NCBI GenBank assembly: GCA_018819205.1
Contig: JAHJQE010000011.1
Location: 47,978-111,977 of the forward strand
Direction: 5' to 3'
Length of the DNA: 64,000 bases
Origin: Gammaproteobacteria bacterium
GTDB lineage: Bacteria; Pseudomonadota; Gammaproteobacteria; Burkholderiales; Gallionellaceae
Shown: positions 36,676-42,033 of the stretch, piece by piece
How positions within the stretch are numbered: position 1 is the stretch's first letter
How the letters are laid out: each line of letters starts with the position of its first letter
Translations under genes and position numbers: made by a program
Notes under the pieces: model-generated
Seen by the model: the letters and a program-made list of their open reading frames with translations, nothing else
Database searches by the model: none
What the model was told of the DNA's origin: nothing

Positions 36676-36824
36676 GGAATAAAGGCCCCCGCCTGTGCCG
36701 TTGACTCAATGTCTTGAACCTGGGTTCAAGAGGGTCGGTTCCCGGTTACATCAGGTGCTTCCACAAGGGATGCTCACAACAGTAACTTGAATGGGGCGCA
36801 ACCTAAGCATTAGCTCATTGGTTC
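36676..36824 (-). ncRNA. ssrS: 6S RNA (ends approximate)
   Basis: Minus strand carries CTCTTGAACCCAGGTTCAAGacattgagtcaacggcacaGGCGGGGGCC, resembling the conserved 3' half of 6S RNA; adjacent to zapA; CATAAT -10 about 6-11 nt upstream. Confidence 0.82.
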
Positions 36825-36873
36825 AAAGAATTATGAATCTCACGAACACCGCAGGGGACAAACTGTCGATCAG

Positions 36874-37385: not shown

Positions 37386-37492
37386 GCGTGCACTATAGTT
37401 TTTATTTCCCTGTTAAGTCAATTGCTAACGGAATGTTTTGCAAGTATTTTGGAGTCGATGCATGCCAAGCCTGCTACAATCCGTCTTGCTTC

Positions 37493-37665
37493 AAGGTGCT
37501 GAAGGGCGAGAGTCCTTCAGTTAAACGGGAAGCAGGTGAGATGCCTGTGCTGCCCCCGCAACGGTAAGCAAGTGAGGGTTCGTCGATATGCCACTGTGCG
37601 CAAGCATGGGAAGGCGGCGAATCAAGACTTGTGAGCCCGGATACCGGCCTTGGGCGAGGTTCAGG
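37493..37665 (+). promoter_or_regulatory. Cobalamin (AdoCbl) riboswitch
   Basis: Conserved blocks: AAACGGGAAGCAGGTGAGATGCCTGTGCTGCCCCCGCAACGGTAAGC ... GAGCCCGGATACCGGCC; upstream of btuB. Confidence 0.95.
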
Positions 37666-37775
37666 AAATGCTGCGGGCGGCGCATGGACGATGTCATTAC
37701 TATCATCGCCTGCAGTTCTTCCTGGTTTTATCGTTGTTCCAACGGGGACGCTTGGAACACTCTCAGGAAAATCAA

Positions 37776-39587
37776 ATGAAACAACAGAAACTCATTGCCG
37801 CACTGCTGTGTGCGGTATCCACCCTGGCCGTTGCCCAGGACAGTCTCGATGAAGTGGTGGTGACTGCCGCGCGTAGCGAGCAAGGCATCACTCAAACTTT
37901 GCTGCATACCAGTGTCATCTCACAGCACGATATTCAGGCTTCAGGCGCTGCAGATGTGCCAACTTTGCTGCGCAGCCTGTCCGGCGTGGAAGTTACGCAG
38001 AGCGGTGGTGTCGGTTCGCAGAGCAGCCTGTTCCTGCGCGGTACGAATTCAACGCATACGCTGGTATTGCTGGACGGGGTGCGTGTCGGTTCTGCCACGT
38101 CCGGCGCGTCAGCGTTCGGCCAGCTGATGCCGGATCAGATTGAACGCATCGAGGTCGTGCGCGGTAACGTCAGTAGTCTGTACGGCTCAGAGGCCATTGG
38201 TGGCGTGGTACAGATATTCACCAAGCGCGGCCAGGGGACGCCCAAAGCCCAAGTCAGTGCCGGTTATGGCACGCATGCCACGCGCCGTGCGAGTGCATCT
38301 TTTGGAGGTGAAATGAATGATGCCCACTTCCATGTGGGAGTGTCAAAGTTCGCTACCGATGGCGTGTCCGCGCTTAATACGACGCTGAATCCTTCAGCCA
38401 ATCCGGATGCGGATGGCTACGATAACACCAGTGTGTCGGCCCAAGCTGGCTATGCCTTCAATCGCGCCCATCGCATCGACGCCTCCTTGTTCCAGAGTCA
38501 GGGCAAGGTGAAGTTCGACAATGCGTATGGTGTGGTGACGGATATACATGATAGCGATAGCACATTGTCAAAATGGTCGCTGCGTTTGCATGATCAATTG
38601 TTGCCAGCTTGGCAAAGCAGTTTGATGCTGGCACAGGGGACGGACGATCTGGCCAGCAATACCAATGGTGTGCGCAGTTCGCAATTCAAGACAGTGAACG
38701 ATCAGCTCTCCTGGCAGAACACTCTGGATACTGGTGCGCAAGGCGTACTGTTACTGGGCGCAGAAAGATTGAAGCAGCGCGTGAGCGGCACTACTGCATT
38801 CACTATGAACGCACGTAGCAGCAACAGTTATTTCGCGGGGTACATGGGTGACTACGGTGTGCATCAGGTTCAGGTGAATATGCGTCAGGATCGTTATTCG
38901 GATTTCGGCACTGCCAATACCGGCTTGCTGGGTTACGGTTTACGGGTGACTGATAGCTGGCGCCTTACGGCAAACGCCTCCACTGCGTTCAAGGCACCGA
39001 CGTTCAATGACATGTATTACCCGCTTTCCTTCGGTTATCAGGGTAACCCCAACCTCAAGCCGGAGCGCGCGCGAAATGTTGAGTTTGGTGCGCATTACCT
39101 GCAAGGAGGAATGCATCTGGACGGCGTGCTGTTCAGGAATCGCATTCTTGATCTGATTGCGATCAACAGCAGCTACACCACGATGGAGAATATCGACGAG
39201 GCTGTGATCGAGGGGATGGAGCTGGTTTATGGCGTACGGCAAGGTGGAGTAGCGGTCGAGAATGCGCTGACACTGCAAAGTCCGCGCAATGCAAAGACCG
39301 GCGCACAACTGTCACGGCGTGCACAGGTGTTGAATACGCTCACGGTCGCCCGCACTTTTGAGGCGGGCAGCATCGGGTTCGAATGGCGAGCCAGTAGTGC
39401 GCGCACGGATGGGTTCAACACACTGGCCTCTTATGACGTGATCAGCCTTTCCGCCCAATGGCAGGTCGCACAGCATGTGAATATGAATGCGCGCATGGAT
39501 AATCTGTTCAATCAGGATTACATGCTGGCATACGGATATAACACACCTGGCCGCGTCCTTTATGTCGGCTTGAATTACCGGCCATAA
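37776..39587 (+). CDS. btuB: TonB-dependent vitamin B12 outer-membrane receptor BtuB
   Basis: Signal peptide, TonB box DEVVVTAAR, plug domain, downstream of the B12 riboswitch. Confidence 0.92.
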   Translation: MKQQKLIAALLCAVSTLAVAQDSLDEVVVTAARSEQGITQTLLHTSVISQHDIQASGAADVPTLLRSLSGVEVTQSGGVGSQSSLFLRGTNSTHTLVLLDGVRVGSATSGASAFGQLMPDQIERIEVVRGNVSSLYGSEAIGGVVQIFTKRGQGTPKAQVSAGYGTHATRRASASFGGEMNDAHFHVGVSKFATDGVSALNTTLNPSANPDADGYDNTSVSAQAGYAFNRAHRIDASLFQSQGKVKFDNAYGVVTDIHDSDSTLSKWSLRLHDQLLPAWQSSLMLAQGTDDLASNTNGVRSSQFKTVNDQLSWQNTLDTGAQGVLLLGAERLKQRVSGTTAFTMNARSSNSYFAGYMGDYGVHQVQVNMRQDRYSDFGTANTGLLGYGLRVTDSWRLTANASTAFKAPTFNDMYYPLSFGYQGNPNLKPERARNVEFGAHYLQGGMHLDGVLFRNRILDLIAINSSYTTMENIDEAVIEGMELVYGVRQGGVAVENALTLQSPRNAKTGAQLSRRAQVLNTLTVARTFEAGSIGFEWRASSARTDGFNTLASYDVISLSAQWQVAQHVNMNARMDNLFNQDYMLAYGYNTPGRVLYVGLNYRP

Positions 39588-39623
39588 CAGGCTGCACGGC
39601 GGATTGGCGCCATTTCTGGTAAA

Positions 39624-39651
39624 GTTCCTGCCAGTGATCGCTGGCAGGAAC
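39624..39651 (+). other. Perfect intercistronic hairpin between btuB and the btuM-like gene
   Basis: GTTCCTGCCAG-TGATCG-CTGGCAGGAAC, 11-bp stem, no T-run; ends just before the GGGAGA ribosome-binding site. Confidence 0.8.
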
Positions 39652-39666
39652 CTCGGGAGAATCTTA

Positions 39667-40251
39667 ATGAATATTTTACAAAACAAAACAGTCTGGATCG
39701 CATCGGCATTACTGCTGTTAATGGCGTTGACGCGCTACAACCATTTCGGTTCAGCCTTGTCTTTGCCAGATGCTTCATATGCCGTGTTCTTTCTGGGTGG
39801 TCTTTTCCTCGGTCGTGTACGCGGTGCCTTGGTGATTCTTGCATTGCTGATGATAGAGGCGGCGATGGTCGATTATTACGCGATCAACTTCCGCGAAGTG
39901 AGTGGCTGGTGTGTGACCTCGGCCTACACCTTCCTGGTATTCGCCTATGGCGCGCTGTGGTTCATTGGTCGCTGGTATGCGCCGCACCATGATCTGACGC
40001 TCAAAGGCATGGCAGGCCTGTTGCTGGCAGGCGCAGTTGCAGGTAGTGCGGCGTTCGTCATCGCCAACGTGAGTTTTTATCTGTTGGCCGGATATTTCGA
40101 CAGCATGAGCGTTATCCAGTATGTCTCCAGCGTCGCGCAATACTACGGTCCTTATGTCGCAGTGGCGGTGTTCTACATCGGTTCGGCGGCGGGGGCGCAG
40201 ATGCTGTTCGCATTGCTCAGCGGCAAGAATCGGCAGGTCGATGCACGCTGA
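39667..40251 (+). CDS. btuM: Probable solitary ECF-type vitamin B12 S-component (BtuM-like)
   Basis: 195 aa, about 6 hydrophobic segments; single Cys at position 82 (VSGWCVTS); downstream of btuB and a cobalamin riboswitch. Confidence 0.7.
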   Translation: MNILQNKTVWIASALLLLMALTRYNHFGSALSLPDASYAVFFLGGLFLGRVRGALVILALLMIEAAMVDYYAINFREVSGWCVTSAYTFLVFAYGALWFIGRWYAPHHDLTLKGMAGLLLAGAVAGSAAFVIANVSFYLLAGYFDSMSVIQYVSSVAQYYGPYVAVAVFYIGSAAGAQMLFALLSGKNRQVDAR

Positions 40252-40278
40252 TTCAGCCCCTCGGAGCATTGCTGTCCG

Positions 40279-42033
40279 ATGACTAGCGCGCAACTCTACC
40301 TGCGCTTGATGCGCTATGTACGCCCGCATTGGCGGGTGTTCGCAATTTCCATCCTCGGCATGGCAGTGGCTGCGGCAACTGAGCCCTTGTTGCCGGCATT
40401 ACTCAAGCCATTCCTCGACGGTACCTTCGTGCACAAAGATGATGCGGTGATGCATTGGGCGCCGGTATTCATCCTGGTCATATTCTTTGTTCGCGGCATC
40501 GCAACCTTCTTCGGGTCGTATGCTATCCACTGGGTAGGGAACAAGGTGGTCATGGATCTGCGTGCTGAGATGTTTGGAAAATTGATGTCCTTGCCTACGC
40601 GCTACTACGATGATCATGCAACCGGTTCTTTGATCTCCAAACTCACCTACGATGTGACCAATGTCACGGCTGCAGCTACCAGTGTAGTCACCATCACCAT
40701 CCGCGACAGCATCATCATCCTCGGTCTGCTGGGCTGGCTGTTCTACCTGGACTGGAAGCTGACATTGATCTCGCTTACCGTCGCACCCGTGGTGGCCTGG
40801 GTGATTCAGACGATCAACCGCCGACTGCGCAGTTCCAGTCGTGATACGCAACAGGCAATGGGAAGCATCACGCAAGTGATCGAGGAAAGTGTGACTGCCC
40901 ACAAGGTGGTCAAGTTGTTCGGCGGTCAGCAATATGAACAGCAACGCTTCGACCAGGAAATCAACTGGGTACGTCGGCATATGATGAAGCAGGCTGCTGC
41001 TGCTGTGGCCAACGTACCCATCGTGCAGATGGTTGCGGCGATAGCTTTGGCTTTCGTGATCTACCTGGCGATTGGCCAGGCACAGAGTGATGCCACGACC
41101 GTTGGCAGCTTCCTTTCGTTTGTCGCGGCGATGCTGATGCTTACAGCACCACTGAAGCGCATCACCAGCATCAATGAATTTATCCAGCGCGGCTTGGCAG
41201 CTGCAGAAAGTGTCTTTGCTTTACTGGATACCGAGAGTGAAGTCGACCAGGGAAAATTGCATTTGGGAAGGGTGAAGGGAGCTGTTAGCTTTCAGCACAT
41301 CGACTTTGCTTACCTGCCGGGTGGCAAATTGGTTCTGAACGACATCGATCTGGATATTCCTGCAGGACAGGTGGTGGCGCTGGTGGGGGCTTCTGGAAGC
41401 GGCAAAAGTACTTTGGCGAATCTGGTGCCGCGTTTTTATGAGCTGAGCAAAGGACGCATTCAGATCGACGGGCAGGATATACATGACGTATCGTTGGTCA
41501 GCCTGCGCGCGAACATCGCGCTGGTAAGTCAGGAAGTGGTGCTGTTCAACGATACCATCGCAGCCAACATCGCCTACGGTCAGATGCGCGCAGTGCCTGA
41601 GAGCGAGATCGTCGCGGCGGCAGCGGCGGCTCATGCGATGGAATTCATCAAGGATATGCCGCAGGGGCTGCAGACGCTGGTCGGAGAAAAGGGTTTACGC
41701 CTATCCGGCGGGCAGCGCCAGCGCATCGCCATCGCACGCGCCATCCTCAAGGACGCCCCCATCTTGATTCTGGACGAGGCGACTTCGGCACTGGACAGCG
41801 AATCCGAGCGTCATGTGCAGGCTGCGTTGGAGATACTGATGCGTGGGCGCACCACGCTGGTGATAGCGCACCGTCTGTCCACCATCGAGAAGGCGGACCG
41901 CATCGTGGTATTGAGCAAGGGGCGGATCGTGGAAGCGGGTACCCATGCTCAGTTGCTGGACAAGGATGGCGAATATGCGCAACTGCATCGCACACAGTTT
42001 GGCGGGGCAGGGGAACAGGAAATTTCTGCATAA
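40279..42033 (+). CDS. msbA: Lipid A export ATP-binding/permease protein MsbA
   Basis: ABC TM domain plus GASGSGKSTLANL, LSGGQRQRIAIARAIL. Confidence 0.93.
   Translation: MTSAQLYLRLMRYVRPHWRVFAISILGMAVAAATEPLLPALLKPFLDGTFVHKDDAVMHWAPVFILVIFFVRGIATFFGSYAIHWVGNKVVMDLRAEMFGKLMSLPTRYYDDHATGSLISKLTYDVTNVTAAATSVVTITIRDSIIILGLLGWLFYLDWKLTLISLTVAPVVAWVIQTINRRLRSSSRDTQQAMGSITQVIEESVTAHKVVKLFGGQQYEQQRFDQEINWVRRHMMKQAAAAVANVPIVQMVAAIALAFVIYLAIGQAQSDATTVGSFLSFVAAMLMLTAPLKRITSINEFIQRGLAAAESVFALLDTESEVDQGKLHLGRVKGAVSFQHIDFAYLPGGKLVLNDIDLDIPAGQVVALVGASGSGKSTLANLVPRFYELSKGRIQIDGQDIHDVSLVSLRANIALVSQEVVLFNDTIAANIAYGQMRAVPESEIVAAAAAAHAMEFIKDMPQGLQTLVGEKGLRLSGGQRQRIAIARAILKDAPILILDEATSALDSESERHVQAALEILMRGRTTLVIAHRLSTIEKADRIVVLSKGRIVEAGTHAQLLDKDGEYAQLHRTQFGGAGEQEISA

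Follow-up and report, generated by a model that had tools for sequence, protein, structure and literature searches.

The question raised by this locus is whether a cobalamin riboswitch, a btuB gene, and one small membrane protein form a vitamin B12 uptake unit. The window, meaning the whole 64,000-nucleotide stretch of DNA that was analysed, belongs to a Sideroxydans/Gallionellaceae-like genome, and the nearest named relatives of its BtuM are from Sideroxydans MAGs (Gallionellaceae), at 86% identity. The gene order is cobalamin riboswitch, btuB, a BtuM-type membrane protein gene 79 nt further on, and then msbA. Very probably, the locus is a short, riboswitch-switched operon with which a Sideroxydans-like B12 auxotroph takes up vitamin B12 through BtuB and BtuM. 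The features are as follows.

37477..37666, + strand: cobalamin riboswitch aptamer (RF00174), full length; 118 bits, E 5.7e-29, gathering score 31.5
37717..37775, + strand: riboswitch expression platform; minimum-energy fold, both helices conserved in 12 loci
37776..39587, + strand: btuB, TonB-dependent outer-membrane B12 receptor, 603 aa; TIGR01779, PF07715, PF00593
39667..40251, + strand: btuM, predicted solitary S-component-fold B12 transporter, 194 aa, C82; phmmer, alignment, Foldseek
40279..42033, + strand: msbA, lipid A flippase; TIGR02203, 780.1 bits, over the cut-off of 602

The initial annotation proposed a two-gene import route. The locus fits the BtuB and BtuM model, which is not new: this route was predicted and characterised earlier by Rempel et al. 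2018 (PMC6072759). The locus is a clean further example of that published system and not a discovery. The details new here are modest, namely the leader hairpin that hides the Shine-Dalgarno sequence, the apparent exchange of btuB receptors, and BtuM-like proteins with tyrosine in place of cysteine.

The membrane protein encoded after btuB had been described as a 195-aa BtuM-like protein; it is present at 39667-40251 and has 194 residues, 195 being reached when the stop is counted. Its sole cysteine is at position 82 in the motif EVSGWCVTS, as quoted. Pfam and NCBIfam scans of the protein returned no family, and the identification therefore rests on a PDB sequence match and on the fold. The sole significant sequence found by phmmer against the PDB is that of 8c7p/8ovv (E 2.6e-23, residues 2-183), with full-length homology and 34% identity to Thiobacillus denitrificans BtuM (TdBtuM). 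Entry 8ovv bears the title 'Tagless BtuM in complex with hydroxycobalamin', and the 8c7p/8ovv sequence has H28, D67, C80, Y85, and R153 at the T. denitrificans BtuM numbers (PMC6072759). AlphaFold produced five models, built from 23 sequences, with six helices and a mean pLDDT of 63 (moderate confidence). When this moderate-confidence model was compared with the PDB by Foldseek, the top match was 8ovv (E 2.5e-4, TM 0.65/0.71), the only one below 1e-3; the thiamin S-component (ThiT) was ranked second, with an E-value not below 1e-3. Sequence homology and predicted fold together identify the protein as BtuM.

Four of the five pocket residues compared agree. In the alignment, C82 falls exactly on TdBtuM Cys80, the cobalt ligand, and H26, D69, and Y87 correspond to H28, D67, and Y85. 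TdBtuM R153 is replaced by S155 at a variable site, with arginine in 33 of 65 family rows. The R153A variant of TdBtuM retained B12 binding and decyanation (PMC6072759). The family alignment has 65 rows, drawn from Gallionellaceae and from further families of the order, and includes a few duplicate copies of one locus. The cysteine is conserved in 63 of 65 rows, the equivalents of D67 and Y85 in all 65, and the H28 equivalent in 64. By analogy with TdBtuM, the protein would hold B12 in the base-off form, with cobalt coordinated by the C82 thiolate, would remove the beta-axial cyano group where present, and would take B12 across the inner membrane with no need of an ECF module or BtuCDF. The toppling mechanism, like transport and decyanation, is carried over from TdBtuM and is likewise presumed.

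Compared with TdBtuM (Tbd_2719; 8c7p, 8ovv; PMC6072759), the protein is alike in length, in its six helices, and in the site Cys, His, Asp, and Tyr. The two hosts also share btuB linkage and the lack of BtuC and BtuF; no ECF module was found in either, apart here from one weak, orphan EcfT-like gene. The differences are the 34% identity, the Ser for Arg at Td position 153, the lack of btuR either adjacent or in the genome (a PduO-type enzyme is found instead), and the msbA gene downstream. Solitary BioY biotin S-components are also of the S-component fold and work without an ECF module (PMC6072759, PMC11109136), but their vitamin and sequence are different and the general fold alone is in common.

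Genome-wide importer searches covered the BtuC, BtuF, and EcfT families. No PF01032 (FecCD) domain of a BtuC-type permease and no PF01497 (Peripla_BP_2) domain of a BtuF-type binding protein was found in the genome; the controls gave matches in 13 of 14 genomes. The earlier observation that the window holds no btuCDF or ECF genes thus extends to the whole genome for BtuC and BtuF; for ECF it is qualified by one weak, orphan EcfT/CbiQ-like gene elsewhere. Among 200 genomes of the order, 34 carry BtuM. FecCD, a family that also takes in siderophore permeases, is present in 15 of these 34 and in 140 of the 166 others (Fisher p 2.6e-6, uncorrected for relatedness).

The genome encodes MetH and, elsewhere, a PduO-type adenosyltransferase (PF01923). 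These would use the imported cofactor inside the cell and may trap it. Only two TP_methylase genes are present in the genome; their open frames are 459 and 303 aa long, and by size they would be siroheme synthase and RsmI. No extra TP-methylase genes of corrin-ring synthesis were found in the genome beyond these two, so the corrin-ring pathway appears to be missing, and B12 auxotrophy of the organism is probable. With no BtuC or BtuF and no sign of corrin-ring synthesis, yet with MetH and a PduO-type enzyme, uptake by BtuB and BtuM fits such an auxotroph. In T. denitrificans, as in most hosts, btuR adjoins btuM (PMC6072759); this linkage is a common context of BtuM and does not define the protein. 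No BtuR (PF02572) was found in this genome. Since a BtuM host has a PduO-type rather than a BtuR-type adenosyltransferase, metabolic trapping need not involve BtuR. Gallionellaceae-type iron oxidisers now join the examined BtuM carriers, and the locus points to a dependence of these bacteria on B12 from other producers. A search of the literature on Sideroxydans and cobalamin found no paper that treats cobalamin uptake, judged by titles and the openings of abstracts.

Expression of the operon is probably governed by its leader. The riboswitch proposed initially is a full-length RF00174 aptamer that begins about 16 bases upstream of the start first given. It is the sole copy in the genome, and its nucleotide identity is 91-95% in six close relatives. 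The expression platform downstream consists of an inner hairpin (GTTCCAA/TTGGAAC, loop CGGGGACGC) enclosed by an outer helix (TTCCTGG/TCAGGAA), which covers the btuB Shine-Dalgarno sequence about 6 nt before the ATG. The energy z-score of the leader fold is only -1.9. The inner helix is fully paired in 12 of 12 loci, with paired changes in L020 (GTTCCGG/CCGGAGC) and L009 (GCTCCAA/TTGGGGC), and the loop reads CGGGG(A/T)CGC in all 12. The outer helix keeps all of its pairs in nine of the 12 loci and 5-6 of 7 pairs in the other three.

This anatomy is that of a translational cobalamin riboswitch, and because the Shine-Dalgarno sequence of btuB is hidden by a hairpin that is conserved and shows compensating changes, control of btuB is probably translational. 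The E. coli btuB riboswitch is translational and of the same Shine-Dalgarno-hiding type. Both have the full aptamer, a downstream hairpin with a G-rich loop, and a helix over the Shine-Dalgarno sequence, and no difference from this type was detected. General knowledge of riboswitches suggests the direction of control and a loop-loop contact, which would probably form between CCCC of the aptamer and the GGGG loop of the downstream hairpin. With little B12 in the cell, the Shine-Dalgarno sequence would be free and the btuB-btuM mRNA translated. When B12 occupies the aptamer, the loop-loop contact would stabilise the helix that conceals the Shine-Dalgarno sequence.

The first gene after this leader was correctly named btuB. 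The best NCBIfam model for the receptor is TIGR01779 (TonB-B12; E 3.3e-134, 448.7 bits), which is the best family match along the whole length, and the protein has the PF07715 plug and the PF00593 barrel. Its score is under the strict equivalog cut-off of 599.7, as is that of the L004 allele. BtuB would carry B12 through the outer membrane by means of TonB.

The receptor gene differs among relatives at a fixed site, with swaps seen across the window and loci L004, L007, L008, L009, L012, L013, L022, and L028. Two types of swap occur, and in both the riboswitch and btuM are conserved. The first is barrel-only: between the window and L004, identity is 85% over a stretch that starts upstream of the riboswitch and runs to about btuB codon 154, the alignment is then nearly lost until 39496, and identity is 80% from there through btuM. 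The second replaces the whole receptor: L013 and L008 have BtuM proteins that are 97% identical and receptors that are 25% identical, and their nucleotide similarity stops about 40 bases into btuB and returns at 94% just past it. The receptor of L007, L008, and L028 is a different TonB-dependent protein; in L007, TIGR01779 is the best model but a weak one (165.9 bits against 599.7). The simplest reading of these alignments is recombination at the receptor gene. The chances are about even that receptors are exchanged by recombination at the btuB position, as barrels or as a whole, with riboswitch, signal peptide, and BtuM fixed and one BtuM serving several interchangeable outer-membrane receptors. 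If so, selection by phages, bacteriocins, or differing environmental corrinoids could drive the swaps.

The swapping of the paired receptor for different receptors could also mean different ligands, and the affinity of TdBtuM for cobinamide is sub-micromolar (PMC6072759). It is nevertheless very improbable that this BtuM imports, in place of B12, another corrinoid, for example cobinamide or a cobamide other than B12: the cobalamin riboswitch, the BtuB-type receptor, and MetH are all consistent with B12, and nothing points to a different ligand.

Uptake of B12 by BtuB and a solitary BtuM is also preferred over a BtuM driven by ATP. The EcfT/CbiQ-like gene of the genome (C91:15355) is a weak match, at 28.2 bits against a cut-off of 25. 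It encodes an orphan 222-aa membrane protein (L003:1420-2088, contig C91) flanked by fimV-like and truA-like genes. Many genomes of the order have comparable CbiQ matches, likewise weak and partial and of about 210 aa. Among the 200 genomes, EcfT-like genes occur in 11 of 34 with BtuM and in 44 of 166 without it (p 0.53); being no commoner with BtuM, they give no reason to name the EcfT-like protein its partner. The other candidate partner, the MsbA ATPase, is encoded 27 nt downstream of btuM, and the two genes are adjacent in many Gallionellaceae. In L011, L014, L018, L025, and L029, msbA is not beside btuM, and it is therefore a neighbour and not a part of the uptake unit. Coupling of BtuM to the lone EcfT-like protein or to the adjacent MsbA, suggested by the presence of these genes and by the short gap before msbA, in which no terminator-like site was found, is highly improbable, as EcfT-like genes are equally common without BtuM, MsbA is a complete lipid A flippase whose gene is absent beside btuM in several relatives, and TdBtuM works in E. 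coli, a host without an ECF module (PMC6072759). Neither protein is supported as an energy source for BtuM.

Transcription of msbA is a separate matter. No terminator-like or consensus promoter-like site was found in the btuM-msbA gap (40251-40279), and msbA is probably co-transcribed with btuM. Given this 27-nt gap, msbA, a normally essential gene, may partly share the B12-controlled transcript.

The order riboswitch-btuB-btuM is kept in most relatives, and btuB adjoins btuM in most. A riboswitch is present in 22 of the 26 loci scanned. Those without one are L019, L025 (a locus whose start lies within the unit), and L087/L088. In L019 (3137-4523), btuM is kept beside a zapA-like gene without btuB or riboswitch, and in L079 the riboswitch is immediately 5' of btuM. 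Some genomes have two BtuM genes (L065, L067, L083, L027, and L057), and in some of these genomes each copy has its own btuB.

Remote BtuM-like proteins in which Tyr replaces Cys are encoded at L087:7950-8585 and L088:7833-8417 (genomes G085 and G041), two related genomes that count as one observation. These proteins retain the His, Asp, and Tyr of the cobalamin site. No cobalamin riboswitch and no btuB match was found in the 16-kb loci. As judged from sequence, this pattern agrees with a need for the cysteine in B12 work, and the homologues offer a natural test of how the cysteine works.

When the surroundings of the operon were scanned for promoters and terminators, no site clearly exceeded shuffled sequence. 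Upstream of the operon, a 6S RNA (SsrS) gene lies at 36682-36860 on the - strand beside a zapA-like gene, and it is conserved as a neighbour of the operon in relatives.
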